NCBI GenBank assembly: GCA_011772595.1
Contig: WVZH01000481.1
Span: 348 to 21,898 of the forward strand
Length of the DNA stretch: 21,551 bases
Direction of reading: 5' to 3'
Source of the DNA: Anaerolineales bacterium
Lineage (GTDB): Bacteria > Chloroflexota > Anaerolineae > Anaerolineales > E44-bin32
This document shows positions 1,557 to 18,584 of the stretch, one piece after another. Under the pieces are notes generated by a model. The model made no database searches. It worked only from the letters and a program-made list of their open reading frames with translations, and was not told the origin of the DNA. Within the stretch, counting starts at the first letter, position 1. Each line of letters opens with the position of its first letter. A program made the position numbers and the translations under genes.

Positions 1557-1683
1557 AACTAAGCTTTAAGATCCACCAGAGTTGAGAAAAATGGATGCAA
1601 CCCATTTAATTTGTCATTCAATCCAGATACCACCATCCTCCATTACCCCTTATTGCTCCAATGACGTCCTGATTACTACTGGT

Positions 1684-1692
1684 GGAGGAGGG
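1684..1692 (+). promoter_or_regulatory. Strong ribosome binding site for the 49-codon ORF
   Basis: GGAGGAGGG ends 7 bases before the GTG at 1700. An in-frame TGA at 1694-1696 closes the frame just upstream, so GTG 1700 is the only start this site can serve. The site is the main reason for calling a gene too short for ordinary ORF finding. Confidence 0.6.
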
Positions 1693-1699
1693 CTGAACC

Positions 1700-1849
1700 G
1701 TGAAGGAGAAGATCACCGGGCGAGGATTTCTTACAAATGCAATAACATGGTTGGGGGCGGGAATCGTTTACCTTGCTCACGAAGGACAATCAAGCGAATT
1801 TGAGCAAGTAGACGAATCCCTTGCGAAACCTGCGTTAAAGGACACATGA
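1700..1849 (+). CDS. Small 49-residue protein, translationally coupled to the GH99-like gene
   Basis: The ORF starts with GTG 7 bases after a strong Shine-Dalgarno sequence. It ends with TGA at 1847-1849, overlapping the ATG of the next gene (1846-1848) in an ATGA junction, the classical arrangement for translational coupling. The product has a basic start (MKEKITGRG), a hydrophobic stretch at about residues 10-26 (FLTNAITWLGAGIVYLA) that could be one membrane segment or amphipathic helix, and an acidic tail. I do not recognise a family. It could be a small membrane partner of the glycosidase lipoprotein, or only a leader ORF that delivers ribosomes to it. Expression is inferred. Confidence 0.5.
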   Translation: MKEKITGRGFLTNAITWLGAGIVYLAHEGQSSEFEQVDESLAKPALKDT

Positions 1850-3378
1850 ACATGAAAAACAAACGACTGGGTGTTCTAATTCTCATCATCGGGATGACCT
1901 CATGCTCAAGAATTGAGAATTTCTTCACATCGGACCAAGGACCTCCCAGAAGAACCGCAATCACAGAAACTCCTACTGTTGCTGTACCCACCCCCTCGGA
2001 GACACCTCTCCTCCCGACCTCTACACCAACGGAGATACCAATTCAAATGACCTCGTTTTCCTTCCTACACCTGCGAGTAGAGTTCACATCGACCTCCGAT
2101 TGGACAACTCTCGAATTCACTTCCGCGGAGAATATCCTCACCGCACGCCGGATCTCTTCGATCGGGAATCCACAACACCCTTATGCGGGCACCGATCGTC
2201 TTTCCTTTGGTCAGTCCATCAACGATCCAACGGAGGCGGAGACAGTTGGTATGGTCGTGGACTTATTCCTGTCGCCTGAGGCGCGCAGCCATGAGTTCTC
2301 CATGGTCCTTCAAAAAGGGGATTGGAATGGAAGCTTCGTGCAGATCAGTCACGTCGTTGGTGATGAATTAAAAGAAATCACGTCTATCTCGCACGAGGGT
2401 GTCGTCCCGGATAGCGGCGGATTGAACACGCTGCCCGTTCGCATCGACCTCGCCAATCAAGCAGATCTCGCCCTGGAGACTGCGCAGATTCAGCGCTTGG
2501 CATTACCCAGGATGATCTGGGCGTTCTACTACCCCTGGTATCGCCTTGATGATTGGGGCAGCGATATTCTCATCGATCGCCCGGCGAAACCCTACGCTTC
2601 GCACGACCCCGAGTCGATCGCCCGCCACATCGAACAAGCTCAGGATGCAGGTATCGATGGTTTTATCTCCTCCTGGTGGGGTCCGGAGGATTACACCGAT
2701 CGCAACTTGGAAACCTTGCTAGACCTAGCGCAGGATCGAGGCTTTTCAGTTACGGTCTACTTCGAGACCCTGCGCGGGGACGGTCCGCAGCCCAGGAATG
2801 TGATCATCCGATGGCTGAGATACCTGCTCTCGACCTATGCCGAGCACCCAGCTTTCTACAAGGTGAACGGAAAGCCGTTGGTCTTGTTTTGGGCTTCCGA
2901 TACGGTCCCAATTGAAACTTGGCAGGAAATTTTCGATACTTTGCGTGCCGAAGGTCTGGAGTCTTTCAGCCTCGGTATTGGCTATTCAGCCACAAACCTT
3001 GAGGTCTTCGATGGTATCCATGAATACGGTGTGTTCCTGTACGAGGATCTCTCGCAGACCTTTCTTGCTGCCAACCGATTGACCCGGTACTACACAGCTC
3101 TAACAGTAGATTCGCCACCCAAGGTGTGGGCGGCCACCGTGCAACCTGGTTATGACGATCGCCTCATTCCGGGGCGTGAGGGGTTGGTGCAGGATCGCGA
3201 AAACGGCGACTTCTATCGCAGCACCTTTGAGGCCGCCATCGCTAGCGATCCGGACTGGATTTTCATCACGACCTGGAATGAATGGTGGGAGCACACGCAC
3301 ATCGAGCCCAGTGAGAACTTCGGCGAACTGTATTTGGAGATTACTCGAGCTTATGCTGATCAGTGGAAAAATCCATAG
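1846..3378 (+). CDS. Lipoprotein with GH99-like (endo-alpha-mannosidase/WbsX-type) glycoside hydrolase domain
   Basis: The 510-residue protein begins with a lipoprotein signal (basic start, hydrophobic core, M-T-S-C with Cys at about 20), then a Thr/Pro-rich linker (about 35-68), a beta-rich region that could bind carbohydrate (about 70-215) and a C-terminal TIM-barrel-like domain. The barrel opens with F-Y-Y-P-W-Y at about 227-232 and ends with T-W-N-E-W-W-E-H (E479, E482), followed by an I-E-P motif. In GH99 enzymes the two acidic residues of the W-x-E-W-x-E region form the active site, and both are kept here. The ATG at 1846 has AAAGGA (1837-1842) upstream; an in-frame ATG at 1852 is an alternative. 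It probably acts on mannan- or mannose-containing glycans outside the cell. The GH99-like family is fairly sure; the exact linkage is not. Confidence 0.8.
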   Translation: MNMKNKRLGVLILIIGMTSCSRIENFFTSDQGPPRRTAITETPTVAVPTPSETPLLPTSTPTEIPIQMTSFSFLHLRVEFTSTSDWTTLEFTSAENILTARRISSIGNPQHPYAGTDRLSFGQSINDPTEAETVGMVVDLFLSPEARSHEFSMVLQKGDWNGSFVQISHVVGDELKEITSISHEGVVPDSGGLNTLPVRIDLANQADLALETAQIQRLALPRMIWAFYYPWYRLDDWGSDILIDRPAKPYASHDPESIARHIEQAQDAGIDGFISSWWGPEDYTDRNLETLLDLAQDRGFSVTVYFETLRGDGPQPRNVIIRWLRYLLSTYAEHPAFYKVNGKPLVLFWASDTVPIETWQEIFDTLRAEGLESFSLGIGYSATNLEVFDGIHEYGVFLYEDLSQTFLAANRLTRYYTALTVDSPPKVWAATVQPGYDDRLIPGREGLVQDRENGDFYRSTFEAAIASDPDWIFITTWNEWWEHTHIEPSENFGELYLEITRAYADQWKNP

Positions 3379-3446
3379 CCAAGAATTCGTATCCAGTCCG
3401 TCACGGAACCATCCGGAAGAGGTGCGGGGAATAGGATTCTTCCCAT

Positions 3447-3482
3447 CCTTCGACTTCGCCTCCGGCTCCGCTCAGGATGAAC
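3447..3482. repeat. Dispersed repeat fragment of the CCTTCGAC...GCTCAGGATGAAC type
   Basis: The sequence begins CCTTCGACTTCGCC and ends GCTCCGCTCAGGATGAAC. The same core recurs as TCTTCGTCAAGCTCAGGATGAAC at 13261-13283 and, as its reverse complement with one-arm variation, at 13338-13360. Repeats of this kind are common between genes in several environmental bacterial lineages, including Chloroflexota as I recall. No function is visible. Confidence 0.6.
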
Positions 3483-3698
3483 TACAGGAAATGGTTGGAA
3501 TTGGACAAGGAGTGATATGAAAGCAATATTGCATTCATTCCTGCTCAAGTCCGATTCGGAGACATAGCCGAAAGGGGCGAACGGGGGGTGATCAGAAAGC
3601 AAGGTCTTCCACCCGGACAATGAAATCCCATACCGAGACATCGCCATAATCAAACCGGGTCTTTTCCAAGAGGCGTTGAAGTCCAATTGAGAAAACGA

Positions 3699-3732
3699 GA
3701 TTCCTCACTCGCTCCGCTCGTTCGGGATGACA
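3699..3732. repeat. Dispersed repeat fragment of the GATTCCTCACTCGC...GGGATGACA type
   Basis: The stretch reads GATTCCTCACTCGCTCCGC then TCGTTCGGGATGACA. It is a familiar intergenic repeat sequence with short internal complementarity (CGCTC/GAGCG-like) and no coding potential. Only one copy is present here, so the repeat call depends on recognition rather than on an internal match. Confidence 0.45.
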
Positions 3733-3855
3733 GCACAAAGAGAATCTTGTACTCGCCAGCTTAAATCGTAGTCATTGAACCATGAGCAAAAACGGCAGCA
3801 CGCTCACATTTCATCCATGAACCACATTCGTGCCACATACCCACTGGCATTCCCC

Positions 3856-4773
3856 TCACTTGGCATCGATCTCGCCTACGAAGCGGAACTCTAGCCCATC
3901 CGCTTCATAGATCCACTGTATTCTCTCGCCTGACACATCCCAGGTAAGGATCATATCCGGCATACCATCGCCGGAGTGGTCGGGAGAATCTTCAGACCAT
4001 TCGACCGCAATCAGCTTACCTGGGACCTCTTCTGTCGACCACAGGAGTATGTCCGTCCTCGGCTCCCAATGGTATCGCCTGAGCTGCCCCCCATCCTGGA
4101 GCCAGAAATCGAGGGGGGCCTTCATACTAAAACGCGTGACGATTAGCGTGAAATCATCCGGGTTGGAAAGCGGAAATATGCCTGTGAGTTGCAGATCATC
4201 ACCAGGGCAGTCACCAGACACGACACCCGTTTTCCAGGCACCATCGGGTTCCCTCATCAGAAATTGGATCCTAATAGTCCCATCTACGGATATATCAAAT
4301 AGATAGATCTCCAACCACTGTTCGGGAAATAGACCCTCATCGCCCCAATGCCAAAGGATTTCATGCTCACCCGAATGAACAGCTCCGTCCCGTTCGCGCG
4401 GAAGTCCCACGATCACGAGATTCAACCCTCCCCTTCGGTGAGGCTCACGATAGGGAAATGCAATGATGAAGCGCGCATCGCAAGCATCAACCAATCCCAA
4501 AGCCATTTCCGGAATCACCTTCGCGCTATGTCGGAGTTTGCTCTCGACACCCATTAAATATCTGGCCAACTCTGAATCAGGCGTGGGTGTTTGAAGGAGG
4601 ATGATCGTCCGATGCGTGAGTTTTGGGGATAAAGCCACAGTAGGAGAAGCGGGAGTGATTGTTGCACCCATGGTCGAGCTTGTGGGTGTTGAGATTTTCC
4701 CACCAAACGTGGAGCAAGCAACGCCTAGACCGACAGCGCCGACCCACAATAGCCACCATAGTAATTTCTTCAT
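3856..4773 (-). CDS. Hypothetical lipoprotein with a D-x-S-G-D-G-type motif near the C terminus
   Basis: The ORF can be extended to 4827, but the start at 4773 places a lysine pair and a hydrophobic signal first (MKKLLWWLLWVG) and gives 305 residues. Cys20 follows G-V-A and probably is the lipidated residue, although the -3 position is Gly rather than Leu. A Ser/Thr/Pro-rich linker follows (about 25-50). The rest is a soluble beta-rich region ending with D-H-S-G-D-G-M-P-D at about 265-273, resembling Ca-binding D-x-[ST]-x-D-G loops of FG-GAP or thrombospondin-type repeats. No family is recognised. It lies 104 bases downstream of the DUF2877 gene on the same strand and may be transcribed separately. 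An extracytoplasmic location is likely; the function is unknown. Confidence 0.7.
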   Translation of the reverse strand: MKKLLWWLLWVGAVGLGVACSTFGGKISTPTSSTMGATITPASPTVALSPKLTHRTIILLQTPTPDSELARYLMGVESKLRHSAKVIPEMALGLVDACDARFIIAFPYREPHRRGGLNLVIVGLPRERDGAVHSGEHEILWHWGDEGLFPEQWLEIYLFDISVDGTIRIQFLMREPDGAWKTGVVSGDCPGDDLQLTGIFPLSNPDDFTLIVTRFSMKAPLDFWLQDGGQLRRYHWEPRTDILLWSTEEVPGKLIAVEWSEDSPDHSGDGMPDMILTWDVSGERIQWIYEADGLEFRFVGEIDAK

Positions 4774-4877
4774 CGAAGGATCCCATTCATACACGGACTG
4801 AAGATTACGGGTATCTCCACAAGCCAATCATGATGAATGGTGGGACAGGATAGCAATATCACCCGTTCTAACGCTTC

Positions 4878-5699
4878 TCAGCCCTCACTTATTAGCGCAA
4901 CAAAGCCCGCTAGTGAATCTGCCCCCGATGTGTGGCCAAGCTGTGCGAGGTCGTTCACAGCCTGACGTATCTCTCGATCTTCACCCTCAAGTAATGCGCC
5001 AAATAATACATGCCAGCGCTCACTACAGGCGCCACCCACTGCAGCTCGCAGCAAAGCCACAGAAAGCGTCGTCGTGCGCACGGCAGCCACGTCAAAGATT
5101 GCGGAACCCCAACGCTTTGCTTGCGCGTCATCTTTTATAGTGTGGAGTGCCAAAAGACAGCCGACGATCCAGTCATCTCCTGCAGGCGTCAACCCGCCGC
5201 CCAATCCTGCCAGAGCTTTTGCGCCATTCAGGCAAAGGTCGAGGTCACCTGCACGCAAACCACCTACCAACTCCATCGCGGGTTCACGTGCCGCCTCGAC
5301 CGCTACGCTTAGATGGTTAGAGCCATATGAAAACCCCTCGAGTAACCCTGCCAGGCTACCTTCCGGCGCGCTTAGTTGAAGACTCTCCTGTACGACCTCA
5401 ATTCTCGCCCGAACCTTTCTGACTTGGTCGCGCAAAATTTCCCAATGTGGACGTGGGTTCCAAATCACCGCATCGCCAGTCTGAAAGTTCAAATCCCCGA
5501 CTTGGAGCCCATCCAAATGCGCTACAACGGTAGCGGCTTCATCGATATGCTGTGGAAAGGCAATCCTTGGAACGGACAGCGAAAACGGGCCCATCCCGAC
5601 CTCAGCATTTGCAAGGGCTAGCACCTCATCCTTTGCGTTGACCAGGTTGCAAACTTGATCGAAGATAGAGAGCATCCGGGCCTCGGTGGTCTCGTTCAA
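4878..5699 (-). CDS. DUF2877 / AllH-family protein (oxamate carbamoyltransferase subunit-like)
   Basis: The protein shows the two DUF2877 signatures: G-L-G-G-G-L-T-P-A-G-D-D (about residues 168-179) and, near the end, G-H-T-S-G-A-D-S-L-A-G. In E. coli the family member AllH (YlbF) works with AllF (FdrA) and AllG (YlbE) in oxamate carbamoyl transfer during allantoin use; those partners are absent from this window. The start is uncertain. TTG 5699 is the only conventional start before ATG 5675, but it lacks a Shine-Dalgarno sequence. The frame stays open upstream to a stop at 5763-5765, and the upstream residues (R-I-T-P-I-A-R-A-W-L) look like genuine family sequence. The gene follows the molybdenum-subunit gene and, if longer, would abut or overlap its end, suggesting one operon. 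Confidence 0.75.
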   Translation of the reverse strand: MNETTEARMLSIFDQVCNLVNAKDEVLALANAEVGMGPFSLSVPRIAFPQHIDEAATVVAHLDGLQVGDLNFQTGDAVIWNPRPHWEILRDQVRKVRARIEVVQESLQLSAPEGSLAGLLEGFSYGSNHLSVAVEAAREPAMELVGGLRAGDLDLCLNGAKALAGLGGGLTPAGDDWIVGCLLALHTIKDDAQAKRWGSAIFDVAAVRTTTLSVALLRAAVGGACSERWHVLFGALLEGEDREIRQAVNDLAQLGHTSGADSLAGFVALISEG

Positions 5700-5746
5700 C
5701 CAGGCCCGGGCGATAGGCGTAATTCGCAGGGCAGAAATTCTTTTGA

Positions 5747-8104
5747 TTACGCTCTTTCCCCCTCATCCTGCATCGCCAGGAACACTTTCTCCGCGCTGAG
5801 CGGCAAGGAAGGGCTGCGCACGCCGACCGCCGCGGCTACTGCGTTCGCGATCGCCGGCGCGGTCGGGACCATCGGGTGTTCACCGATGCCGCGCGCCCCC
5901 CACGGCCCGTCATCTTGCGGCACCTCAACGATGATGGGGATGATCTCTCCCGGGATATCCACGCTCGTTGCGATGCGGTAGTCGGTGAAGCTCGGATTCT
6001 TGGGGATGCCACCTACCAGTTGCAGCTGCTCGAACAACGCCGTGCTGGCCCCCTGGACCACCCCGCCTTCCATTTGCGCGTTCACCTGATCCGGATTGAT
6101 CGCCTTACCGACGTCGAAAGCCGTAGCGACTCGCAGGATGGTGATTTGTCCCGTCTCGACGTCCACCTCCAGATCGACCGCCTGGCAACCGGTTGTGAAG
6201 TGCACTACCGCGCGCGGTCCCTGGCCAGTCTCCGGATCGAGCGGCGTGACGTAAGTGGGCATGAAGGAACCATTTCCAACGATGGGTCCTCCTCGCCACC
6301 CTGAACCGTCCTCTTTAGGTAAGCCGTACACCACGACGTCCTTCAGAGACATCACCTCTTCCGACCGGTAGGAGATCACCTGTCCGTCCTTGATGTCCAG
6401 ATTTTCGGTGTCCTCCTCCCAGTGCTCGGCGAGCAATTCGAGGATCTGGCGACGAGCGTCCTTCGCGGCGGCGACGATGGCGTTCCCCATCGACCACGTG
6501 AGACGACTGGCGACCGTCTGCCACTCGTAGGGGCTGTATAAAGTGTCGAGCGGGGTGCTGACTTTCACCCACTCGAACGGTATGCCCAGCGTAGCGGCGG
6601 CCATTTGTGCAGCGATGGTGAAAGCGCCCTGACCAATCTCCTGTCCGCCGACTCCCACCGACAAGGTGGCGTCTTCATTGAAGCGCACCCATGCAGATGA
6701 ACCGGGGTTGGGAGGCATGGCCGGCGCCTTCCACATGATGGCCAATCCCTTTCCACGGCGTTTGTGTGCAGCGCTCGCCGGTTCCTCCTTACCCCATTGA
6801 ATGGCTTCAGCTGCCTTTGTGATGCAATCCGGCAATCCTGTGGGATGCATTCTTGAGCCGGTGACGGTCATCGCCCCTTCGCGCAGACAATTCTTCAACC
6901 GGAACTCGACCTTGTCCATCCCCAACTCTTCGGCGACCATATCCATGATTTGCTCGATGCCCCAATGGATCTCGGGCATTCCGAAGCCTCGCATCGGTCC
7001 GCCGACGGGATGGTTGGTGTAGACGCAATACGAATCAGCCCACACATTAGGCACTTCATACGGCCCTGTGGAAGAATACCCGGCTGCACGGGTGATGTTA
7101 ACACCGTACTCCGTGTAGGCACCGGCATCCCAGAAATATTCGGTCTTCATGGCCTGAAGCTTGCCATCTTTGCTGGCACCGACTTTGATGCGCGCGACCA
7201 ATCCTTGTCGCACGAAGGCGCAGAAGAACTCCTCTTCGCGCGTGAGACGCAGCTTGACGGGGTGCCCGGGTACCGCGCGCGCCATCACTACTGCCAGTGC
7301 CTCCATCGAGACGCCCGCCTTCGATCCGAAACCACCGCCAACGTATGGCGCAATTACGCGCACGTCGCTTTGTGACAATCCCAACGCTTCGGCGATCAGA
7401 TTACGCTGTGCAAACGGTGATTGGCTGCTCCCCCAGAGCGTGACCTTGCCGGTATGCTCGACGAGTGCGACCGCCACATGAGGCTCGATCGGCGCGTGCT
7501 GGATATGTGGTACGCGGAATTCGCGCGCCACGACAACATCGCACATCGACCACGCCCCATCCACGTCGCCTTTGCGCACTTTGAAGTGGTTCGAGATGTT
7601 GGTACCCGGTCTGGGAAGGATGAAGTTGGCTACCGTGTAATCACCCAGATCTGGATGTAGAAGGGGCGCATCACGGTCGAATCCCTCCACAGGGTCGAGA
7701 ACTGGCTCCAGCAGCTCATACTCGACCTCGACCAGATCACAGCCTTGCTCGGCGACCTGCTCACTCGTCGCCACAACGCCGACGACCGGATCGCCGACGT
7801 AACGCACCCGATCACGACAGAACGTATATCGATCTTTGAGATACAAGCCGATGCGATCTTGGGTCTCCTCGCCCGTGACAACCGTTTTCACACCGGGTAA
7901 CGCACGCGCTTTGCTGACATCGATCTTCTTGATGCGTGCATGTGGATGTGGGCTGCGCACGACGCGGCCATAGAGCAGATCGGATCCGAAGCGCAGATCG
8001 TCGGCAAATTTGGCTTCACCGGTCACCTTCTCACGTGCATCGACGCGGGCGACGCTCTTACCGATCGGGGAGGGAATTTGCTCGCTTTTTATGCTCGCAT
8101 TCAT
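5747..8104 (-). CDS. Molybdopterin-binding subunit of a xanthine-dehydrogenase-family hydroxylase
   Basis: At 785 residues this matches the stand-alone large subunit of three-subunit molybdenum hydroxylases. An N-terminal aldehyde oxidase/xanthine dehydrogenase hammerhead domain (about 15-135) precedes the cofactor-binding region. Visible motifs are Y-V-G-G-G-F-G-S-K (254-262), G-G-P-M-R-G-F-G (368-375), V-G-G-Q-E-I-G-Q-G, and G-A-R-G-I-G-E with the expected catalytic Glu742. R372 aligns with bovine xanthine oxidase Arg880, but Ala263 occupies the place of Glu802, which contacts xanthine, so the substrate may not be xanthine. ATG 8104 has GGAGGG just upstream. The gene starts one base after the [2Fe-2S] subunit stop, so the two are co-translated. 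It is presumably cytoplasmic, since no Tat signal is seen. Confidence 0.92.
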   Translation of the reverse strand: MNASIKSEQIPSPIGKSVARVDAREKVTGEAKFADDLRFGSDLLYGRVVRSPHPHARIKKIDVSKARALPGVKTVVTGEETQDRIGLYLKDRYTFCRDRVRYVGDPVVGVVATSEQVAEQGCDLVEVEYELLEPVLDPVEGFDRDAPLLHPDLGDYTVANFILPRPGTNISNHFKVRKGDVDGAWSMCDVVVAREFRVPHIQHAPIEPHVAVALVEHTGKVTLWGSSQSPFAQRNLIAEALGLSQSDVRVIAPYVGGGFGSKAGVSMEALAVVMARAVPGHPVKLRLTREEEFFCAFVRQGLVARIKVGASKDGKLQAMKTEYFWDAGAYTEYGVNITRAAGYSSTGPYEVPNVWADSYCVYTNHPVGGPMRGFGMPEIHWGIEQIMDMVAEELGMDKVEFRLKNCLREGAMTVTGSRMHPTGLPDCITKAAEAIQWGKEEPASAAHKRRGKGLAIMWKAPAMPPNPGSSAWVRFNEDATLSVGVGGQEIGQGAFTIAAQMAAATLGIPFEWVKVSTPLDTLYSPYEWQTVASRLTWSMGNAIVAAAKDARRQILELLAEHWEEDTENLDIKDGQVISYRSEEVMSLKDVVVYGLPKEDGSGWRGGPIVGNGSFMPTYVTPLDPETGQGPRAVVHFTTGCQAVDLEVDVETGQITILRVATAFDVGKAINPDQVNAQMEGGVVQGASTALFEQLQLVGGIPKNPSFTDYRIATSVDIPGEIIPIIVEVPQDDGPWGARGIGEHPMVPTAPAIANAVAAAVGVRSPSLPLSAEKVFLAMQDEGERA

Positions 8105-8105
8105 G

Positions 8106-8573
8106 TCACCCTCCTACAGCCGCAGTCTGCACGGCGTGGATAATGCGTACATAGCCCGTGCAGCGGCAAAGGTGGCCGCGCAATGCATTTTTGACTTCCT
8201 CCTCTGTGGGTGAGGGGTTTCGATCCAACAAGGCCCGGGCAGACATCAGGACTCCGGGGGTGCAGAAACCACACTGAACGGCGCCGTGCGCGATCAAGGC
8301 TTCCTGAACCGGATCGAGGCGTCCATCCTGTGTCAGACCTTCGACTGTGAGGATCTCCGCATCTGCCGCCTCCACAGCCAGCACCAGACAAGCGTTGATC
8401 GGTTCTCCATTCATCAACACCGTGCAAGCCCCACATTCACCTGCCGAGCATCCGTTTTTTGTACCCATCAGCCCGATACGATCACGCAGCAAGCTGAGAA
8501 GAGTCATGTTGGAGGGCACCTCCGCATCCTCTCGAACGCCGTTGACCATCAGTGAAATCACATGATTTCCCAT
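8106..8573 (-). CDS. [2Fe-2S] subunit of the molybdenum hydroxylase
   Basis: This 155-residue protein is the usual size for the small iron-sulfur subunit. The plant-type ferredoxin cluster is bound by C42, C47, C50 and C62 (G-C-S-A-G-E-C-G-A-C). The second, helical cluster is bound by C101, C104, C136 and C138 (Q-C-G-F-C-T-P-G and L-C-R-C-T-G-Y). All eight ligands are present. It passes electrons from the molybdenum centre to the FAD subunit. Its ATG directly follows the stop of the FAD-subunit gene with no gap, behind a GAAGGAGGG sequence that lies in the end of that gene. This is typical of a co-translated heterotrimer. Confidence 0.95.
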   Translation of the reverse strand: MGNHVISLMVNGVREDAEVPSNMTLLSLLRDRIGLMGTKNGCSAGECGACTVLMNGEPINACLVLAVEAADAEILTVEGLTQDGRLDPVQEALIAHGAVQCGFCTPGVLMSARALLDRNPSPTEEEVKNALRGHLCRCTGYVRIIHAVQTAAVGG

Positions 8574-9473
8574 CTAACCCTCCTTCTCCATCATCGACCA
8601 CACTTCTCGTATACCGCGCAACGTGAGCGCCTTTACCATGGCCTTCCGATAACCTGCTGAAGCGCGCACGTCATCGATCGGCGCACTGACCGCCTTGGCC
8701 GCTTCGGCAGCCTGTTCAAACATCTGCTCATCGAGTGGCCCCTTAGCGAGGATCGCTTCGGCTTCAAGCGCTCGAATGGGCGTAGGTGCGACCGAGCCGA
8801 GCGCAAGGCGAAAGAGATATCCACTCGTCGCGCTTTGCTCGGGATATGCCATCACCGCCACACTAACGACTGCCAGATCGCCGTGCTTGTTACGCCCGAG
8901 TTTGTGATAACTGCCTTGCCAACGGGCAGGTGGGACGGGATAAACGATGCTGATTAGGAACTCGTCCTTATCAAGCACATGTTCACCAGGCCCTCGGAAG
9001 AACGCCGTGGCGGGGATAGACCTCTCTCCCTTCGGCCCATGGGCGATCATGGAAGCTTCAAGGACTAGCGACGGCGGCGCCAGATCCGCGGCGGGAGAAG
9101 CATTGCATAGATTCCCACCGATCGTGGCCCTGTTTCGAAGCGGGTACGAAGCCACCGTATTGGCGGCTATTTCCAGCATCGGATAATGAGCCCTCACAGC
9201 CTCGTATTTGGCAAGGGCATTCATTGTCACAGCCGCACCCACACGCAACCCCGATTGCGAATCGAAGTCGATAGAATTCATTCCCGGCAAAGCCTTCACA
9301 TCGAGAAGCACAGCCGGCGAAAGCTCACGCCCTCTCATCTGCATGAAGATATCCGTGCCGCCCATGAGAAGTCGAGTTTCCTTACCTTTTTTGCGAAGCA
9401 ACTCGACGACCTCAGCGGGTGTCTCAGCACGGACATAATCAAAGCTAGGTAGACCAGGCATTGGTAGCGTCAT
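8574..9473 (-). CDS. FAD-binding subunit of the molybdenum hydroxylase
   Basis: The product has 299 residues, about the normal family length. It carries the FAD-binding signatures L-M-G-G-T-D-I-F (about 37-44) and A-T-I-G-G-N-L-C-N-A-S-P-A-A-D (about 115-129), followed by the CO-dehydrogenase flavoprotein C-terminal region. A GTG at 9479 would lengthen it by two codons, but that GTG lies inside the Shine-Dalgarno sequence GGGAGG (9479-9484), which is spaced 5 bases from ATG 9473; the ATG is therefore the start. It leads the three-subunit block FAD, [2Fe-2S], Mo. The 203-base spacer upstream holds three inverted repeats and probably the control region. Confidence 0.93.
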   Translation of the reverse strand: MTLPMPGLPSFDYVRAETPAEVVELLRKKGKETRLLMGGTDIFMQMRGRELSPAVLLDVKALPGMNSIDFDSQSGLRVGAAVTMNALAKYEAVRAHYPMLEIAANTVASYPLRNRATIGGNLCNASPAADLAPPSLVLEASMIAHGPKGERSIPATAFFRGPGEHVLDKDEFLISIVYPVPPARWQGSYHKLGRNKHGDLAVVSVAVMAYPEQSATSGYLFRLALGSVAPTPIRALEAEAILAKGPLDEQMFEQAAEAAKAVSAPIDDVRASAGYRKAMVKALTLRGIREVWSMMEKEG

Positions 9474-9478
9474 GTCCA

Positions 9479-9484
9479 CCTCCC
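9479..9484 (-). promoter_or_regulatory. Ribosome binding site that fixes the FAD-subunit start
   Basis: GGGAGG on the minus strand sits 5 bases before ATG 9473. The alternative GTG start at 9479 overlaps this site and would leave no binding site of its own. Confidence 0.65.
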
Positions 9485-9566
9485 ATCACAGGATAAGAAC
9501 CAAGATCTTGCTATTAGAAAGCCCTCATCCATAGAGAGAACTTATTGTGACTCCTAAATCCCCCTG

Positions 9567-9587
9567 ATGAAATCGACCTCATTTCAT
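9567..9587. promoter_or_regulatory. Inverted repeat, candidate operator 1
   Basis: ATGAAAT and ATTTCAT form perfect 7-base arms around a 7-base spacer. It lies 94 bases upstream of the FAD-subunit start, in the only large spacer before the molybdenum hydroxylase genes. There is no T-tract and the stem is AT-rich, so a protein-binding site is likelier than a terminator. Confidence 0.4.
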
Positions 9588-9612
9588 AGCGAGCCCGAGT
9601 AACGGAGATTCA

Positions 9613-9628
9613 CCTTTGAGTTCAAAGG
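9613..9628. promoter_or_regulatory. Inverted repeat, candidate operator 2
   Basis: CCTTTGA and TCAAAGG are perfect 7-base arms around 2 bases. A 2-base loop is too tight for an efficient RNA hairpin of this kind, which favours a dimeric DNA-binding protein. It lies between candidate sites 1 and 3 in the same spacer. Confidence 0.4.
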
Positions 9629-9631
9629 ACC

Positions 9632-9660
9632 TTAACTGTTTTTGATTGTCTTTCAGTTAA
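9632..9660. promoter_or_regulatory. Inverted repeat, candidate operator 3 or weak terminator of the cyclase gene
   Basis: TTAACTG and CAGTTAA are perfect 7-base arms around a 15-base spacer. The repeat lies 17 bases past the cyclase stop codon on the minus strand. It could form a stem in the cyclase transcript, but no U-tract follows on that strand, so a strong intrinsic terminator is not supported. Confidence 0.35.
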
Positions 9661-9676
9661 ACTCGCCAGGCTGTCA

Positions 9677-10525
9677 TTACGACTGTGGACGCTGGCAAAC
9701 GCAATCGCCGAACTTCGTCAGATCAAACGATTTCTTTTTCTCCATTAAAGCTTCATACCGTGCATCGTCGACGAATGCCACAATGCGGCTTATGCTTGCC
9801 TCGCCATCCACAAAACGCCATGGGAAACAGCCGACGTCCACACGCTCATTGAGCAGAAGATCGATGTCGCCGCCCAGACACTCCGCATGGATGATCCCGA
9901 GCGGGAACAAATCGATGTGCATGAGTTGGTACTTATCATCGGTGAAGATTTCCGCCAGCGGTACTCCGTACGTTTTCTGGAAATGTGCTTCCGCCTCTTT
10001 CGCCTGACGTGGCATCCAGGTGCGAATGATCGTATTCATTGGATGGTCGGCGCTACCGCAGTCGACTCCCAGCCATTTGAGTTTCTTCTTCTTGCACCAC
10101 TCGGCGAACTCTCGATCCGGTCCTGGATGCTTCACCATGTAACGAACTTCGTCTGCGCCAGGCTGATCCCATCCATAGCGGTGATAGCCGGTATGGATCA
10201 GCAGGATATCCCCCTCCCGCACCTCCACGCGGTCCTCAATCATCTTCGAGGTGTAGATGTCGTAGTCACCAGCGGCGTCCGAAAGATCAACGATCACACC
10301 CGGTCCAAATAAGAAATCAAAATCGAGCGCGGCGATATCTTTCCCGGGTGTGTAGAAATGAATCTCACCATCCAAGTGCGTACCAAGGTGATTAGAATGC
10401 GTGAGCACCTGACCGTTAGCGCCGTTGGGCGCAAGACGCTTGAAGTACTTAACTTCCAGTGGCTCGTATGTCGGCCAGGGGGGCGTACTCACACCTAGCG
10501 GAATGGAAAGATCAATGATTTTCAT
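9677..10525 (-). CDS. Cyclase-family (kynurenine formamidase / isatin hydrolase-like) metal-dependent hydrolase
   Basis: The 282-residue protein carries the cyclase-family metal site H-L-G-T-H-L-D with H46, H50 and D52, and a further His56 as in the family motif H-x-G-T-H-x-D-x-x-x-H. Family members hydrolyse amide bonds, including those of N-formylkynurenine and the isatin ring. ATG 10525 is preferred to the ATG at 10549, because GGAGGGG lies 8 bases upstream and the protein then begins MKIIDLS, matching family N termini. It sits between the thiolase-like/DUF35 genes (147-base gap) and the molybdenum hydroxylase genes (203-base gap). Such a neighbour suits opening of a ring hydroxylated by the molybdenum enzyme. 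The substrate is not determined. Confidence 0.85.
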   Translation of the reverse strand: MKIIDLSIPLGVSTPPWPTYEPLEVKYFKRLAPNGANGQVLTHSNHLGTHLDGEIHFYTPGKDIAALDFDFLFGPGVIVDLSDAAGDYDIYTSKMIEDRVEVREGDILLIHTGYHRYGWDQPGADEVRYMVKHPGPDREFAEWCKKKKLKWLGVDCGSADHPMNTIIRTWMPRQAKEAEAHFQKTYGVPLAEIFTDDKYQLMHIDLFPLGIIHAECLGGDIDLLLNERVDVGCFPWRFVDGEASISRIVAFVDDARYEALMEKKKSFDLTKFGDCVCQRPQS

Positions 10526-10672
10526 CTCCTCGTCCCCTCCGTGCTGCAAATTGCTTTTCTCAACGTGAATGTCCCCCCACTTTTCACAATTCTTGTTGAG
10601 CTATAAAGACCTCAAGGAGTCAAACATTCGGCGATGCCTGACGATCATAAGTTGACAACCTTGTTTTCGAGA

Positions 10673-11011
10673 TTACCGGGTCGGATGAAAGATGAGACCC
10701 ATGATTTTCTCGCCGCCAATCACTCGGACGGGGCCCCAATCGGCTTTCAGTTTCATCCCAATGCGTGGGTTCTCAGACTGGATCAACCCCAACGCCTTAA
10801 CGCCGTTATCGAATTGGACGACGCCGAGCACACGCCCGCGTTCATCTATTCCCCACGGAAGCTGATCGATGACGGTGTAGGTGACCAGTTTTCCACCAGA
10901 CGAGGGGGACATCTCCTTGAATTCGCGCCCGTTGCAATTAAGACAGCGGTAGTGATGTGGATACATCACCAACCCACAGTTCTTACATTTATAGGCCGTG
11001 ATGGTCTTCAT
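10673..11011 (-). CDS. DUF35 Zn-ribbon/OB-fold protein, thiolase partner
   Basis: This 112-residue protein has an N-terminal rubredoxin-like Zn ribbon (C9, C12, C23, C26) followed by an OB fold (about 35-112), the standard DUF35 architecture. DUF35 proteins bind thiolase-fold enzymes and help place CoA substrates; known cases are archaeal thiolase/HMG-CoA synthase complexes and the ChsH2-Ltp2 steroid aldolase. Its start overlaps the end of the thiolase-like gene by 4 bases (ATGA), which fits a stoichiometric complex. A long plus-strand ORF across the same bases is a shadow, because this frame carries the conserved family motifs. Confidence 0.88.
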   Translation of the reverse strand: MKTITAYKCKNCGLVMYPHHYRCLNCNGREFKEMSPSSGGKLVTYTVIDQLPWGIDERGRVLGVVQFDNGVKALGLIQSENPRIGMKLKADWGPVRVIGGEKIMGLIFHPTR

Positions 11012-12192
11012 ACGTCACTCCTTAACACAAAGGCCAAAACATTGTTACCAAATCCACCGAAATTCAATGAGAAACCCTTCTTGGCTTTTTTGACCTGTCG
11101 CTCCCCTGCTTCCCCTCGTAATTGCCAGACGAGCTCTACCACCTGCGCCACGCCCGTCGCACCGACAGGATGGCCGCGTGCTTTGAGACCTCCGGAAGGG
11201 TTAATGGGTAATTTTCCACCGATGCGGGTTACCCCCTCTTCCAATGCTTTGGCGCCTTCGCCAATCTTAAAGAAACCGGCATGTTCGCTCTCCGCAATCT
11301 CTAGAATGGTGAAGGCGTCGTGTAGTTCGGCAACGTCGATATCCTTAGGTTTTACTCCCGCCATCGAAAAAGCTTTCTCCGAGGCGATCCTCACCGCTTT
11401 CAAATCCGTGGGATCGCTTCGCTCGTGGAGTGTATGGGTATCCGTGGCTTGTCCAACGCCAACGATCTTTACCGGAGGCTTTTTCCACTTCGCTGCCAAC
11501 TCTTCCGTGGTCAGCAGCACGGCGGCCGCGCCGTCACTCACGGGACAGCAGTCGTAAAGGTGAAGCGGCTCCGCGACGACAGGGCTGTTAACGTGCGCTT
11601 GAGGATGGGTGAGGATGCCTTCCATTGTGATCTGCATCTGGATATGAGCGTAGGGGTTGAGCAATCCATTTTCCTGATTCTTGATCGCCACCATGGAAAG
11701 ATGCTCACGCGTGACGCCGTATTTTTCCATGTAAAGCCGTGTGAACATGCCTGCCATCGCAGGTAACGTCAAGCCGTATATGTACTCAGCTTCCGGATGC
11801 GTCATCGCAGCCACGATGTCCGTGGCTTTCGGCCCGATGACTGCGCGCATCTTTTCACCTCCCACGACAAGCACAACATCGTGGTAGCCCGATGCGACGG
11901 CGAGAAAGCCGTTTTTGATCGCCGAACCACCTGAGGCTGGACCATTCTCGACGCGGTCGGCCGCAGCAGGCATCAGACTAAGTCGATCAACCAGTGCGCT
12001 GGCAACGGAAACTTGATGGTTGAACAAACCCGATGCCATATTGCCCACGTACACTGAATCGACGGGATGATCGCCGATCCCTGCATCATCCATGGCATTC
12101 AGGCCGGCTGAAGCGAGCATATCGACGAGACTATCATCGTCCCGCCTTTCGAAAGGGATCATACCTGCGCCGGCAACTACGACGGATCTCAT
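11008..12192 (-). CDS. Thiolase-fold (SCP2-type) protein lacking the nucleophilic cysteine
   Basis: The 394-residue protein has the complete thiolase fold with G-G-L-K-A-R-G-H-P-V-G-A-T-G (H341) and E-L-H-D-A-F (H291). At the place of the acyl-accepting Cys (usual V-E-x-x-C-A-S-G-G) it reads V-E-N-G-P-A-S-G-G, with Pro85; the DNA codon is CCA. Without this Cys, ordinary thiolysis by a covalent acyl enzyme is unlikely. DUF35-paired thiolase-like proteins lacking this Cys include the steroid side-chain aldolase Ltp2, so a retro-aldol or related CoA-thioester reaction is possible. It overlaps the GNAT-like gene and the DUF35 gene by 4 bases each. The fold is certain; the reaction is inferred. 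Confidence 0.88.
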   Translation of the reverse strand: MRSVVVAGAGMIPFERRDDDSLVDMLASAGLNAMDDAGIGDHPVDSVYVGNMASGLFNHQVSVASALVDRLSLMPAAADRVENGPASGGSAIKNGFLAVASGYHDVVLVVGGEKMRAVIGPKATDIVAAMTHPEAEYIYGLTLPAMAGMFTRLYMEKYGVTREHLSMVAIKNQENGLLNPYAHIQMQITMEGILTHPQAHVNSPVVAEPLHLYDCCPVSDGAAAVLLTTEELAAKWKKPPVKIVGVGQATDTHTLHERSDPTDLKAVRIASEKAFSMAGVKPKDIDVAELHDAFTILEIAESEHAGFFKIGEGAKALEEGVTRIGGKLPINPSGGLKARGHPVGATGVAQVVELVWQLRGEAGERQVKKAKKGFSLNFGGFGNNVLAFVLRSDV

Positions 12193-12881
12193 GGGGTCAT
12201 CCTCCTGCGCACACCGAGGATCTTTTCCAGGATGTCATCCTCGCTGGCAACGATGATTTCCTTTTTCGCCTCTTCCAATAATTCTGGTGGCACGGGGCGT
12301 TCCCCAGCCACTAGACGGTCCTTGTTTTTGAAATACAGCTCCCGTGTCAACGCATAAGGCGCGGCGCCGCCGAGTTCATGCTGGCCTTCACGTGACTCAA
12401 GAGCATACTCGATCATCCAGCGACGGAACCCAATTGGGCTCTCGGCGGTGATCAGGACCTCCTCCTGACCAATGTGTTCGATTGAATACTCCATCTTGGC
12501 CGCAAACAGGTGGGCTCCGATGCGCAGACCGCGTTCGATTGCCAAGGTGTGGTAGCTCATACCTACCTCTCGGGAAACCAAACGAGTGTTGACGATCCCC
12601 ACCAGCAATCCTTGGATCTGACCGATGAGACAAAACTCATCCCGCACACGATAACGTTGCCAACCGAGAAGCTCCGCGTAAAGTCTGGCTCCGACGATGT
12701 CGTAATAATCCCTGGCTACTTCGAACGTCGGCTTTACGGCCTTGAGCAATATCGGCACGTCCTCACGTGTAGCCTGTCTGACGACCAGTTTCCCTCCAGT
12801 GGAAAGTGTGATCACCTTGGGGGGATATGGAGGAATCTCCAACTCCGGTGGTCGCAAGTATGCTTCGACGTCCATATCCAT
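12189..12881 (-). CDS. GNAT-like acetyltransferase-fold protein in the thiolase operon
   Basis: The 230-residue protein has a GNAT-like core: a beta strand with V-R-Q-A-T-R-E-D-V-P (about 34-43), a central strand region (about 78-105), and an R-I-G-A-H-L-F segment (about 120-126) resembling the acetyl-CoA loop, followed by a helix and a Gly-Phe-Arg-Arg-Trp strand/helix. The first 30 and the last 60 residues are not typical of GNATs. ATG 12881 has AGGAGG upstream at 7 bases. Its stop overlaps the thiolase-like start by 4 bases, so it heads a coupled three-gene unit. A CoA- or acyl-group role would suit the neighbours, but the family assignment is moderate and the substrate unknown. Confidence 0.65.
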   Translation of the reverse strand: MDMDVEAYLRPPELEIPPYPPKVITLSTGGKLVVRQATREDVPILLKAVKPTFEVARDYYDIVGARLYAELLGWQRYRVRDEFCLIGQIQGLLVGIVNTRLVSREVGMSYHTLAIERGLRIGAHLFAAKMEYSIEHIGQEEVLITAESPIGFRRWMIEYALESREGQHELGGAAPYALTRELYFKNKDRLVAGERPVPPELLEEAKKEIIVASEDDILEKILGVRRRMTP

Positions 12882-13450
12882 GTTTTGTCCTCCTGGGATG
12901 TTCTAAGCGTGCAAGCAAACGAGATCGAATCGACTTTTAAAGAGCATGAGATCAATGGGCATGAAATACGCCATCCTGCTCATGATGGTCGCTCAATTCT
13001 TTTCTTGTGATCCTTTCCTGGAATGTAGAGGAAGTCCGAATTTACTACCTTGATCTCACTCTTGATCGTTCATGCGAATGCACTCGCCTCGACGACCAGT
13101 ACGTCAGAAGCATGATGAGTTGCATTGGTTCTGGCAAACGCCCCCCCGAATCGCCAGCTCCCACACTCTAATTCTAGCCCTATGGTAGCGGAAAGCAAGG
13201 TGTAAAATGACGCTCTCTTCGTGTGCCAATCATACAGACTTGTATGGCATTGCGAGGCACTCTTCGTCAAGCTCAGGATGAACTCCGTGCCGAAGCAGTT
13301 CCCGACATGCAATTTGGGGATCGGTTCGCCCCTGTAGTTGACCCTGAGCGTAGTCGAAGGGGGGCTCGCAATGACAATACACATCCCTTCTGGCAGATTT
13401 TGGTGAGTGGAGGTATCCTATCGGCGCACGTCAGGACAAGGAGACACAGC
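12882..13450. other. Divergent intergenic region
   Basis: This 569-base spacer separates the minus-strand GNAT-like operon from the plus-strand zinc-ribbon gene, so promoters for both must lie here or the transcripts begin elsewhere. I found no strong -35/-10 pair. The left part (12900-13240) shows no credible gene or structured RNA. The right part holds the inverted-repeat element at 13246-13375. A minus-strand ORF and the upstream extension of the zinc-ribbon frame cross it, but both translate repeat sequence. Confidence 0.55.
13246..13375. repeat. 130-bp imperfect inverted-repeat element (MITE- or REP-like)
   Basis: The left arm (13246-13282) begins GGCATTGCGAGG and contains CTTCGTCAAGCTCAGG. 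The right arm (13338-13375) is its imperfect reverse complement, containing CCTGAGCGTAGTCGAAGG and ending CTCGCAATGAC. The arms extend outward weakly through GTAT and ATAC. The centre contains CCGAAGCAGTTCCC and GGGGATCGGTTCG, a second, looser complementarity. No transposase or clear target duplication is present. The element is non-coding. It lies 75 bases before the zinc-ribbon start and may carry transcription signals. Confidence 0.65.
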
Positions 13451-14539
13451 ATGGTTAGAAAGACCGTCGGCTACGTTGAGCTCGAGTGGACATGCCCTAA
13501 CTGCAACTCACGAAATCCAGGACCCAATAAGTTCTGTAACGGTTGCGGAGCACCACAACCGGATGACGTCGAATTTGAACAGCCGGCCGAGGAGAAGTTG
13601 ATCACAGACCAGGCCAAGATCGCCCGCGCCAAAGCCGGTCCCGATGTCCATTGTCCCTATTGCGGGACGCGCAATCCAGGGGATGCAAAGTTCTGTGGCT
13701 CGTGCGGCGGTGATCTGACTGGGGCGACGGCACGCCAAGCCGGGAGGGTGGTCGGCGTTCATAGAACCGCACCCGCAGGTATGGTCAACTGCCCCTCCTG
13801 TCATGCCGAGAACGACGCCACCGCCTTTAATTGCTCCCAATGCGGTGCTAGTCTAGCTGACGTGCGAGCAAAACCCGTCGCTCCCGAACCTCCGACACCG
13901 ACGGCGGCTGTGAGGAAACCCTTCCCTGGTGGACTCGCTATCGGCCTGATTGTTTTTTGCTTCGCCGTGGTGGCCGGTGTGTTCTTCCTCTTCATTCGCA
14001 CGGAGACATTTGTCGGTCAGGTTCAGAGCGTGGAGTGGACTCGTAGCATCCCGATCCTGGCCATGGGAGAAGTTGAAAACGAGGATTGGCTAGAAGATAT
14101 CCCCTCCGATGCTGAGATCGGAACTTGCCGGCTGGAGCATCATCACACCCAGGATGAACCCGCTCCCAACGCAGAAGAAGTCTGTGGAGAGCCGTACACC
14201 TTGGATACCGGCAGCGGATACGGCGAGGTGGTTCAGGATTGTGTCTACGAAGTGTATGAAGAATATTGCTCGTACACGATGCTGGATTGGATCGAGATTG
14301 ACACGATCACGGCTAGCGGTGGAGACTTGAATCCGTATTGGCCGCAGGTCAATTTACAATCCGACCAACAGCAGGGTGAGGGCGAGGAAAGCTACGAAAT
14401 CGTCTTTATGGCCGACGACGTGCCATACACCTATACAACGACCGACAGTGCCGAGTTCTCGCAATTCACGGTAGGAAGCACCTGGCAATTGAACGTGAAC
14501 GCTCTAGATGCTGTCGTGTCCGTTGAGCCTGATCGTTAA
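13451..14539 (+). CDS. Triple zinc-ribbon membrane protein with Cys-containing extracytoplasmic domain
   Basis: The frame is open from 13223, but its first 76 codons translate the repeat element. ATG 13451 follows an AAGGAG at 13438-13443 and gives 362 residues. Three zinc ribbons follow: C15/C18/C29/C32, C68/C71/C82/C85 and C114/C117/C128/C131. A Pro/Thr-rich linker leads to one membrane segment (about 160-182), then a C-terminal domain with four cysteines (C226, C245, C264, C273) and many acidic residues. With the ribbons inside, the C-terminal domain would be outside, where the cysteines could form disulfides. Multi-zinc-ribbon membrane proteins are common but mostly uncharacterised. The MFS gene follows after 48 bases. 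Function unknown. Confidence 0.8.
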   Translation: MVRKTVGYVELEWTCPNCNSRNPGPNKFCNGCGAPQPDDVEFEQPAEEKLITDQAKIARAKAGPDVHCPYCGTRNPGDAKFCGSCGGDLTGATARQAGRVVGVHRTAPAGMVNCPSCHAENDATAFNCSQCGASLADVRAKPVAPEPPTPTAAVRKPFPGGLAIGLIVFCFAVVAGVFFLFIRTETFVGQVQSVEWTRSIPILAMGEVENEDWLEDIPSDAEIGTCRLEHHHTQDEPAPNAEEVCGEPYTLDTGSGYGEVVQDCVYEVYEEYCSYTMLDWIEIDTITASGGDLNPYWPQVNLQSDQQQGEGEESYEIVFMADDVPYTYTTTDSAEFSQFTVGSTWQLNVNALDAVVSVEPDR

Positions 14540-15957: not shown

Positions 15958-17301
15958 CTACGACCGTGCAAGCGCATCCTGTAAATCGCCCGATCCCAGC
16001 ACTCCTCGGCTACGCCACCAGAGCCATGCCACCTGTGCGCTCGTTCCCAAACTGAATGACAGCCACCCAACATAAAGACCCACCGACTGCCCCCAAATGA
16101 CCCCCAAAACGAGACAGAAGGAAATCACAATCAGCGAGATCGCAACGGCCTCGGTTACGGCACGCGTGCGACGCGAATTTAATATCACGCCTTGATACCA
16201 ACTCTGAAGAACACTCAGTGCCGGAAGCGGGAAGGCAAACCATAGCGACTGTCCTGCCAGCGCCGCCAGTGTGGGTTCGAGCGACGACAGGTCCTCGAAC
16301 CAGAGCTTGGCGAGAGGGGACGCTGCGACCAGAATCAACAATCCTGTTGCACAAGCCATCAATAAGGATGAGAAACGTTTCAGTGGACGGACCGCATCGG
16401 GCTCGTCCAGCATCGCGACTACAACCTCGTTGAACGCCACACCTGGGCTGCGTAATAGGAACACGAAACCTGTGATGACCGGCCAGACAGCGAGCGACTC
16501 AAGCGCCAAGGGCATTCGGCTTAAAGCCGCGCTCCCGATGGGTTGGGTTAAAAGCAACAAGAGAGAGGTCATCGCCAACGGTATGTAGAACTGCAAGAAA
16601 GAACGAACCATCAGAGGTTCGCCTATAGGAGTGGCATCGCGCACTTGATCGCGCAACACCGGACGCACTCGCAAGCCTGCGTAAAGTGCTTCGCTTAGCA
16701 CACCCGCAGATATCGCCGCGCCGGCAACGGCAATTCCGGGCCAAATTTTAAAAAGAAGACCAGCGATGAGGACTGTCATCTCCGCTAGCAGCCGGATGAC
16801 CGTCCCTGCTCCCACTGCCTGTGAGTGACCAAAGCGGATAAGAACACCTTGATGAAAACGTCTGAAAGCGATCGACCATGTCCATGGGAGCATCATCCGC
16901 AATCCGAGTCGCGCCGGCTCAACGATCTCCGCAGGAGCCCCAATCAATTGCACCGCGACGACATCATACATCGGAGTGAAGGCGATAAGTGCGTGGAGTG
17001 CCGTCAATCCTCCCCCCATCCACATCATGTACCTTCGCAATCGACAGAATGAATCCCAATCCTTGCTCAACGCCGTAGAGGCCGCGAGCAGCATCATGAT
17101 CGGGGACTCGATCAACAAGGCCAGAGGAAAGACTACACCGCCCCAAGCTGCAAGGTTGATTTGCGCATTCGGAAGTCTGGCGACGACAGCGCTAACGGCC
17201 GGAAGATCTAACGCCATCAACAGCCAACTGGCGGCCAAGGGCCACCATGTGCGGAACACACGTCTTAGCGACACGGAAGCAGGTGACAAAGTTTGGGCCA
17301 C
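15958..17301 (-). CDS. Polytopic membrane protein, MATE/MOP-flippase-like
   Basis: The 447-residue protein has about 12 hydrophobic segments in two similar halves; each half opens with a W/Y-x-P-L-A segment (F-R-T-W-W-P-L-A at about 16-23 and F-Y-I-P-L-A-M-T in the second half). This two-repeat layout with an internal Pro suits the MATE/MOP flippase fold, and the pattern is also reminiscent of the ankyrin-like ANKH transporters. No diagnostic substrate motif is seen. The GTG start lies 11 bases after the TPR gene, with a GGAG about 14 bases upstream, rather far, so the start is not certain. It may export a polymer precursor or small molecule linked to the LCP protein of the same operon; this is inference. 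Confidence 0.65.
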   Translation of the reverse strand: MAQTLSPASVSLRRVFRTWWPLAASWLLMALDLPAVSAVVARLPNAQINLAAWGGVVFPLALLIESPIMMLLAASTALSKDWDSFCRLRRYMMWMGGGLTALHALIAFTPMYDVVAVQLIGAPAEIVEPARLGLRMMLPWTWSIAFRRFHQGVLIRFGHSQAVGAGTVIRLLAEMTVLIAGLLFKIWPGIAVAGAAISAGVLSEALYAGLRVRPVLRDQVRDATPIGEPLMVRSFLQFYIPLAMTSLLLLLTQPIGSAALSRMPLALESLAVWPVITGFVFLLRSPGVAFNEVVVAMLDEPDAVRPLKRFSSLLMACATGLLILVAASPLAKLWFEDLSSLEPTLAALAGQSLWFAFPLPALSVLQSWYQGVILNSRRTRAVTEAVAISLIVISFCLVLGVIWGQSVGLYVGWLSFSLGTSAQVAWLWWRSRGVLGSGDLQDALARS

Positions 17302-17312
17302 TGCGATTCTAT

Positions 17313-18566: not shown

Positions 18567-18584
18567 TAACCCTCTCCGTCGCCC

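Follow-up and report, generated by a model that had tools for sequence, protein, structure and literature searches.

An Anaerolineales gene cluster conserved across phyla is a candidate for oxidative breakdown of uracil-type pyrimidines

The known oxidative pathway of pyrimidine breakdown, as described in the accessible part of the source, runs by oxidation to barbiturate followed by barbiturase (Bar, of the AtzD family) and ureidomalonase, and it is rare, with AtzD/Bar enzymes in 3% of 6423 genomes (PMC3758960). A second described system is AllFGH of E. coli, which phosphorolyses a ureide and, according to the available part of its report, is proven for oxalurate/oxamate only (PMC11326118); AllFGH is also noted in nitrifiers in the accessible text of PMC12625717. 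Here we analyse a 21,551-nt stretch of contig WVZH01000481.1 from an Anaerolineales bacterium (the window), in which eight consecutive minus-strand genes at 4878..12881, confirmed as real, encode a GNAT-fold protein, a thiolase-fold protein lacking its catalytic cysteine, a DUF35 protein, a cyclase-family hydrolase, the three subunits of a molybdenum hydroxylase and an AllH-family protein. We lean towards the view that this cluster is one catabolic unit for the oxidative breakdown of uracil-type pyrimidines, with reactions and substrate predicted from gene content. In the literature searched, which lacks most subscription journals and preprints, no published description of the gene set was found.

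In the model we propose, the three-subunit molybdenum enzyme would hydroxylate uracil to barbiturate, or thymine to 5-methylbarbiturate, and the cyclase-family hydrolase would then open the ring to give ureidomalonate. An AllFGH-type complex, with AllH supplied by the cluster and AllF/AllG encoded at another site of the genome, would cleave ureidomalonate with phosphate to yield malonamate and carbamoyl phosphate, the latter being used by carbamate kinase to make ATP. Finally, the GNAT protein and the cysteine-less thiolase/DUF35 pair would carry the malonyl amide to a malonyl thioester and, by decarboxylation, to acetyl-coenzyme A (CoA); other lineages would fill these positions with an amidase or nitrilase plus a CoA-transferase, and with a Na+-pumping decarboxylase. 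This fourth step, and with it the role of GNAT, thiolase and DUF35, is the most strongly inferential part of the scheme. Every reaction in it is predicted, whereas the gene families, their conservation and co-occurrence and the cysteine loss on which it is built are established. An earlier sequence-only reading of this DNA had named the families and the order of steps correctly, and its sequence of molybdenum hydroxylation, metal-type ring opening and CoA chemistry remains the most sensible and is retained. The result would probably be an ATP-saving route with enzymes not earlier linked to breakdown of a uracil-type ring.

The conservation of the gene set was assessed by a species-genome scan with the window cyclase, which gave 315 confirmed stretches, the best 80 of which were kept. 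Close relatives of the cyclase (CYC_A, at least 65% identity to a marker) occupy 114 loci, or 113 once identical cyclase DNA is removed, the window included and many loci truncated. Gene counts cover the strand of the cyclase up to 9 kb from it; the short pieces L081-L130 were excluded from the counts, L061, which holds all eight genes, failed the label filter and is left uncounted, L183-L185 were fetched later and stand outside the 113, and all Fisher p-values ignore kinship. The sequence-only reading had treated the molybdenum enzyme, the cyclase and the thiolase/DUF35 pair as belonging together, and relatives bear this out: all eight genes lie on one strand at 12 of the 112 distinct CYC_A loci besides the window (L001, L004, L010, L013-L016, L050, L052, L065, L067 and L074), spanning Anaerolineae, spirochaetes and one Caldiserica metagenome-assembled genome (MAG). 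Several Anaerolineae loci, with cyclases of 84-87% identity, keep the order GNAT-thiolase-DUF35-(AllG)-cyclase-FAD-FeS-Mo-AllH, and the same set recurs in other orders in spirochaetes, the Caldiserica MAG and a Phycisphaerales MAG (cyclases 75-78%). Counts per 113 loci are AllG 72, AllF 63, FAD subunit 49, Mo subunit 48, FeS subunit 44, AllH 42, NCS2 permease 34, GNAT 33, thiolase 29, DUF35 27, amidase 19, CoA-transferase 19, mmdA 10, Na+ pump 9, nitrilase 9 and carbamate kinase 3; mmdA-like, biotin carrier or Na+-pump genes stand beside the cyclase at 11. These data support the eight genes as a conserved unit across phyla. Cultured species with the cyclase include Alkalispirochaeta alkalica DSM 8900 (L019) and Sphaerochaeta halotolerans (L050). 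No match to the cyclase patterns was found in viral contigs. One otherwise typical locus, L002, has no GNAT gene and a thiolase open reading frame (ORF) shortened to 332 aa, through either a deletion or an assembly fault.

That the block is instead two unrelated neighbouring operons, a GNAT-thiolase-DUF35 acyl-CoA unit and a molybdenum enzyme/cyclase/AllH unit, would agree with the gaps of 123-147 bases between DUF35 and cyclase and of 197-203 bases between cyclase and FAD gene, with the 83 of 113 CYC_A loci (many truncated) that have no thiolase or DUF35 gene within 9 kb, and with the trio at L183, whose genome lacks a CYC_A match; thiolase-like/DUF35 pairs also serve steroid breakdown elsewhere, as the available text of PMC12329534 relates. 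We nevertheless consider it very unlikely, as the trio accompanies CYC_A in varied orders in Anaerolineae, spirochaetes and both MAGs, the distances of cyclase and thiolase are correlated (r 0.76, 23 loci; Mo distances, in which both cluster types are mixed, were set aside), the catalytic residues of the steroid-type Ltp2/Sal enzymes are missing, and in a 150-genome sample of the class CYC_A occurs in 9 of 10 genomes with GNAT against 31 of 140 others. Counted the other way, GNAT is present in 9 of 40 CYC_A genomes and 1 of the remaining 110, the 40 being left after G042 (48% identity to the cyclase) was dropped from 41 matching genomes.

The sequence-only reading saw in AllH a hint of carbamoyl transfer and suggested looking for AllF, AllG and carbamate kinase close by. 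None of these lies in the window, and all were found in relatives, where the FdrA/AllF and AllG models match a gene pair adjoining the cyclase (AllF of L001 at 432.8 against a cut-off of 433), which supports the hint. Three window-like loci lack the pair (L006, L008 and L016) and have AllG elsewhere in their genomes; AllH as a lone orphan is rejected for this reason. Of 24 relatives' genomes tested, 22 have AllG, as does a single one of the 14 controls, E. coli; within the class sample AllG is found in 36 of the 40 CYC_A genomes against 16 of the 110 without (p 9e-18). Carbamate kinase exceeds its cut-off in 21 of 24 carriers. A search for the AtzD-family barbiturase (PF09663) gave hits in 0 of 34 carrier genomes, the control genomes being equally silent, and a Pfam scan found none among the window genes.

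Besides the window-type cluster, a second AllF/AllG cluster exists (L131-L134, L166 and, in part, L140), made up of a CoA-transferase or amidase, AllF, a nitrilase-type gene, AllG, a double-domain cyclase, FAD and FeS subunits, a second molybdenum enzyme and CoxG, often with an NmrA-type protein and near some loci with BMP/PnrA-type ATP-binding cassette (ABC) transporter genes. Its cyclase, of about 557 aa, is 45-48% identical to that of the window and its molybdenum enzyme 29-33%. In the L006, L008 and L016 genomes AllF/AllG sit in this second cluster, together with a CoA-transferase where the contig reaches, and in genome G022 it is contiguous with window-type genes; no AllH was found at L132-L134 with the markers used, and next to L140 lies a dihydropyrimidinase gene that scores 571 bits (cut-off 393).

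As to the substrate, the sequence-only reading had offered a purine-like compound, another N-heterocycle or an aromatic. Purines and aromatics lose ground to pyrimidines in view of the neighbour genes of relatives, which encode a UraA-like permease, enzymes resembling cytosine deaminase and malonamidase, a CoA-transferase, a Na+-pumping decarboxylase and carbamate kinase. The NCS2 permease motif reads Glu-Asn, as in UraA, in 28 of 28 aligned sequences (read from the alignment, the regular expression having fitted 13 of 28), and Gln at this position marks purine permeases. The one permease tested scored 147 bits against UraA, 66 against an SLC23 protein and 36 against a urate-xanthine permease. 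The spirochaete amidase is nearest to malonamidase E2, at 194 bits against 139 for the next family, malonamate having been set down as an intermediate before the identity of the amidase was known. Aromatic, indole or isatin substrates were rejected because AllFG genes, which serve to split ureides, would be pointless for them; isatin hydrolase is nonetheless among the nearest folds of the cyclase.

In a purine or allantoin-type branch the molybdenum enzyme and cyclase would yield oxalurate (parabanate opening being one way), from which AllFGH would form oxamate and carbamoyl phosphate, and amidase and CoA-transferase would take oxamate and oxalate. This is the reaction for which AllFGH is proven (PMC11326118, available part), the CoA-transferase scores highest against CoA:oxalate CoA-transferase, XdhA is the best, sub-threshold match of the Mo subunit, and the title of one reference speaks of enzyme induction by parabanic acid in a streptococcus. 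We judge this branch quite unlikely, however, given the UraA-like permeases, an amidase nearest malonamidase E2, mmdA-like and Na+-pump genes that have no role in oxalate handling, and the lack of an allantoinase over cut-off in the scanned part of the neighbour genes. Unlikely, too, is the use of the same chemistry on another heterocycle with a ureide core, such as cytosine derivatives or hydantoin-like or triazine-like rings, with uracil merely a relative of the substrate. The deaminase-like neighbour is closer to the triazine enzyme AtzC than to cytosine deaminase (178 vs 161 bits), BMP-type ABC transporter genes replace NCS2 at many loci, and the second molybdenum enzyme/cyclase cluster in the same genomes makes at least two substrates likely; against this stand the UraA-like permeases at 34 of 113 loci and a malonamidase-like amidase that fits a C3 unit between ring nitrogens.

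For the proposed uracil hydroxylase, the Mo subunit has the domain composition of the wider molybdenum hydroxylase family and reaches no NCBIfam equivalog cut-off (XdhA, 553 vs 780 bits); its top PDB matches are 4-hydroxybenzoyl-CoA reductase alpha (345 bits) and then nicotinate dehydrogenase (254). The putative ring opener matches PF04199 at 114 bits (cut-off 23.1), and the residues of its HxGTHxDxxxH motif, which we take to be metal ligands, are invariant in 23 aligned sequences. Its predicted structure, of moderate confidence (predicted local distance difference test score 74.9, with residues 11-50 below 50), groups with isatin hydrolases and kynurenine formamidases (best E 9.4e-9), and its clade is labelled arylformamidase or kynurenine formamidase in the sources.

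The sequence-only reading assigned CoA-dependent chain cleavage to the thiolase/DUF35 pair. Cleavage by thiolysis is unlikely because the nucleophilic cysteine of the thiolase-fold protein is replaced by Pro85 (ENGPASG) in 29 of 29 aligned sequences. The HDCF-type cysteine is likewise alanine (HDAF) in 29/29, while GHP is retained in 28/29. With the classical catalytic cysteines missing throughout, a thiolytic thiolase was rejected, as was a steroid-type aldolase of the Ltp2/Sal kind, whose YDHF/YDCY motif is replaced by HDAF in the same 29. Cysteine-less ketosynthases act as malonyl decarboxylases, and malonyl-type decarboxylation is the better guess for this protein than thiolysis. Slow malonyl-CoA decarboxylation is ascribed to TbSLP, a thiolase-like protein without the usual cysteine, in work cited within the accessible part of PMC12329534.

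The distribution of end modules fits an exchange in which GNAT takes the place of amide removal and CoA activation, and thiolase/DUF35 that of decarboxylation. Over the 113 loci, thiolase/DUF35 and decarboxylase genes share no locus (2.9 expected, p 0.028), nor do GNAT and amidase/nitrilase (8.2 expected, p 1.1e-5) or GNAT and CoA-transferase (5.5 expected, p 0.0007), and the three overlaps are still 0 when the count is limited to the 54 loci that have 4 kb or more on either side (p 0.075, 0.00012 and 0.0073). GNAT and mmdA meet on one strand once, at L078. In G022, in which no GNAT match was found, thiolase/DUF35 (L071) are joined to L131, which holds a CoA-transferase and a gene that its first residues mark as nitrilase-like. 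A second GNAT subfamily (L164, L168, L175, L078), of about 241 aa and 36-43% identical to the window protein, follows the cyclase at loci where no thiolase is labelled.

Several observations weigh against the pyrimidine route as drawn. Of 34 genomes tested, 24 have a dihydropyrimidinase above the cut-off and may therefore also run a reductive pyrimidine route, and carbamate kinase is common regardless (over cut-off in 107 of the 150 class genomes), so its presence does not discriminate. The best NCBIfam model for the CoA-transferase, CoA:oxalate CoA-transferase, is reached at 381 against a cut-off of 522, and its top PDB match is succinate-HMG CoA-transferase, leaving the assignment ambiguous; the mmdA-like alpha subunit is below cut-off (745 vs 999), and the Na+-pump beta subunit passes (448 vs 191 bits). 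CtSal, the thiolase-like partner of a DUF35 protein, did not decarboxylate malonyl-CoA according to the available part of PMC12329534. Lastly, L183 (genome G108) combines GNAT, thiolase, DUF35, AllF and nitrilase, and in the L006 genome GNAT/thiolase and CoA-transferase/nitrilase occupy separate clusters, so module exchange is not strict. L183 also has a cytosine-deaminase-like gene.

Table 1. Genes of the minus-strand block, with positions in the window.
Feature	Position	Strand	Remarks
GNAT-fold protein	12189..12881	-	230 aa; first gene of the block; no library model for the family
Cys-less thiolase-fold protein (PRK06064 subfamily)	11008..12192	-	394 aa
DUF35/ChsH2-type OB-fold thiolase partner	10673..11011	-	112 aa
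Cyclase-family (PF04199) hydrolase, proposed ring opener	9677..10525	-	282 aa; ORF open to 10549
FAD subunit, molybdenum hydroxylase	8574..9479	-	GTG at 9479; possible ATG start 9473; FAD_binding_5, CO_deh_flav_C
2Fe-2S subunit, molybdenum hydroxylase	8106..8573	-	155 aa; Fer2, Fer2_2
Molybdopterin subunit, proposed uracil/thymine hydroxylase	5747..8104	-	785 aa; Ald_Xan_dh_C, MoCoBD_1, MoCoBD_2
AllH-family protein, proposed AllFGH-type carbamoyltransferase subunit	4878..5699	-	273 aa; PF11392, 86 vs 25 bits

Pfam backs seven of the eight genes, the GNAT call coming from the predicted fold. The thiolase-fold protein is above both its Pfam cut-off and that of NCBIfam PRK06064 (445 vs 420 bits); the DUF35 protein passes OB_ChsH2_C (29.6 vs 27.1 bits), is marginally below for zf-ChsH2 and has the DUF35 subunit of 6esq as its top PDB match. 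Neither AllH nor the GNAT protein found a match in PDB sequence searches, and a promoter/terminator consensus scan of window positions 3500-13500 gave results at or below shuffle level. At 13343-13361 lies the stretch CTTCGACTACGCTCAGG, with a single match within the window, which we take to resemble a dispersed repeat of such genomes. At L001, the opposite strand next to the cluster (16356-19587) encodes a 2-hydroxyacyl-CoA dehydratase activase that passes its cut-off and two subunits, below cut-off, that are dehydratase/benzoyl-CoA-reductase-like; similar genes occur at L003. Upstream of the L001 cluster, on its own strand (1071-4489), lie an HpaB-like gene of the monooxygenase family and an AMP-forming acyl-CoA ligase; a nearby CoA ligase is among the genes that the sequence-only reading had suggested looking for.

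We put forward only tentatively, as possible yet short of probable, the wider proposal that an oxidative pyrimidine route yielding ATP is widespread, and has gone unrecognised, in Chloroflexota, spirochaetes and candidate phyla. It would combine a molybdenum hydroxylase, a barbiturase of family PF04199 with no relation to Bar, an AllFGH-like complex that phosphorolyses ureidomalonate and end modules that can be exchanged, among them GNAT with the cysteine-less thiolase/DUF35 pair as a new solution for malonamate to acetyl-CoA. Such bacteria are abundant in sediment. If true, the energy saved as carbamoyl phosphate and, in certain lineages, by a Na+ pump would account for how these little-known organisms could live on uracil or thymine, and the cyclase clade, the model-less GNAT family and the cysteine-less thiolase family would gain functions.

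Set beside described systems, the window cyclase shares family, fold and a metal-ligand type motif with isatin hydrolase and kynurenine formamidase (PF04199), but is 12-21% identical to their solved structures and falls in a separate clade tied to AllF/AllG. With the E. coli AllFGH oxamic transcarbamylase and AllK the system has the AllF, AllG and AllH families in common, carbamate kinase being adjacent in some relatives; the predicted substrate is one CH2 longer (ureidomalonate), the window AllH stands apart from AllF/AllG, and no allantoin genes were seen in the scanned part of the neighbourhoods. The thiolase fold minus its nucleophilic cysteine is shared with Ltp2-ChsH2, Sal-Shy and TbSLP, and the small DUF35 partner with the first two; these have YDHF/YDCY/YDCF where the window type has HDAF (PMC12329534, accessible part). 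The neighbours of Ltp2-ChsH2 and Sal-Shy are steroid genes, those found here nucleobase genes. The relatives' amidase and Na+-pump genes, akin to malonamidase E2 and the Na+-translocating methylmalonyl-CoA/malonate decarboxylases, fit a malonamate to acetyl-CoA end; they are not in the window, where GNAT/thiolase/DUF35 would replace them. With the barbiturate pathway, as far as the available text of PMC3758960 describes it, the proposed route would have barbiturate, ureidomalonate and a malonate-level C3 product in common, but with a PF04199 cyclase as ring opener in place of an AtzD-family enzyme, and with a ureide split by phosphate, saving ATP, where the known pathway hydrolyses it to malonate and urea. 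If right, the cluster is a new variant of oxidative pyrimidine catabolism rather than a proven member.

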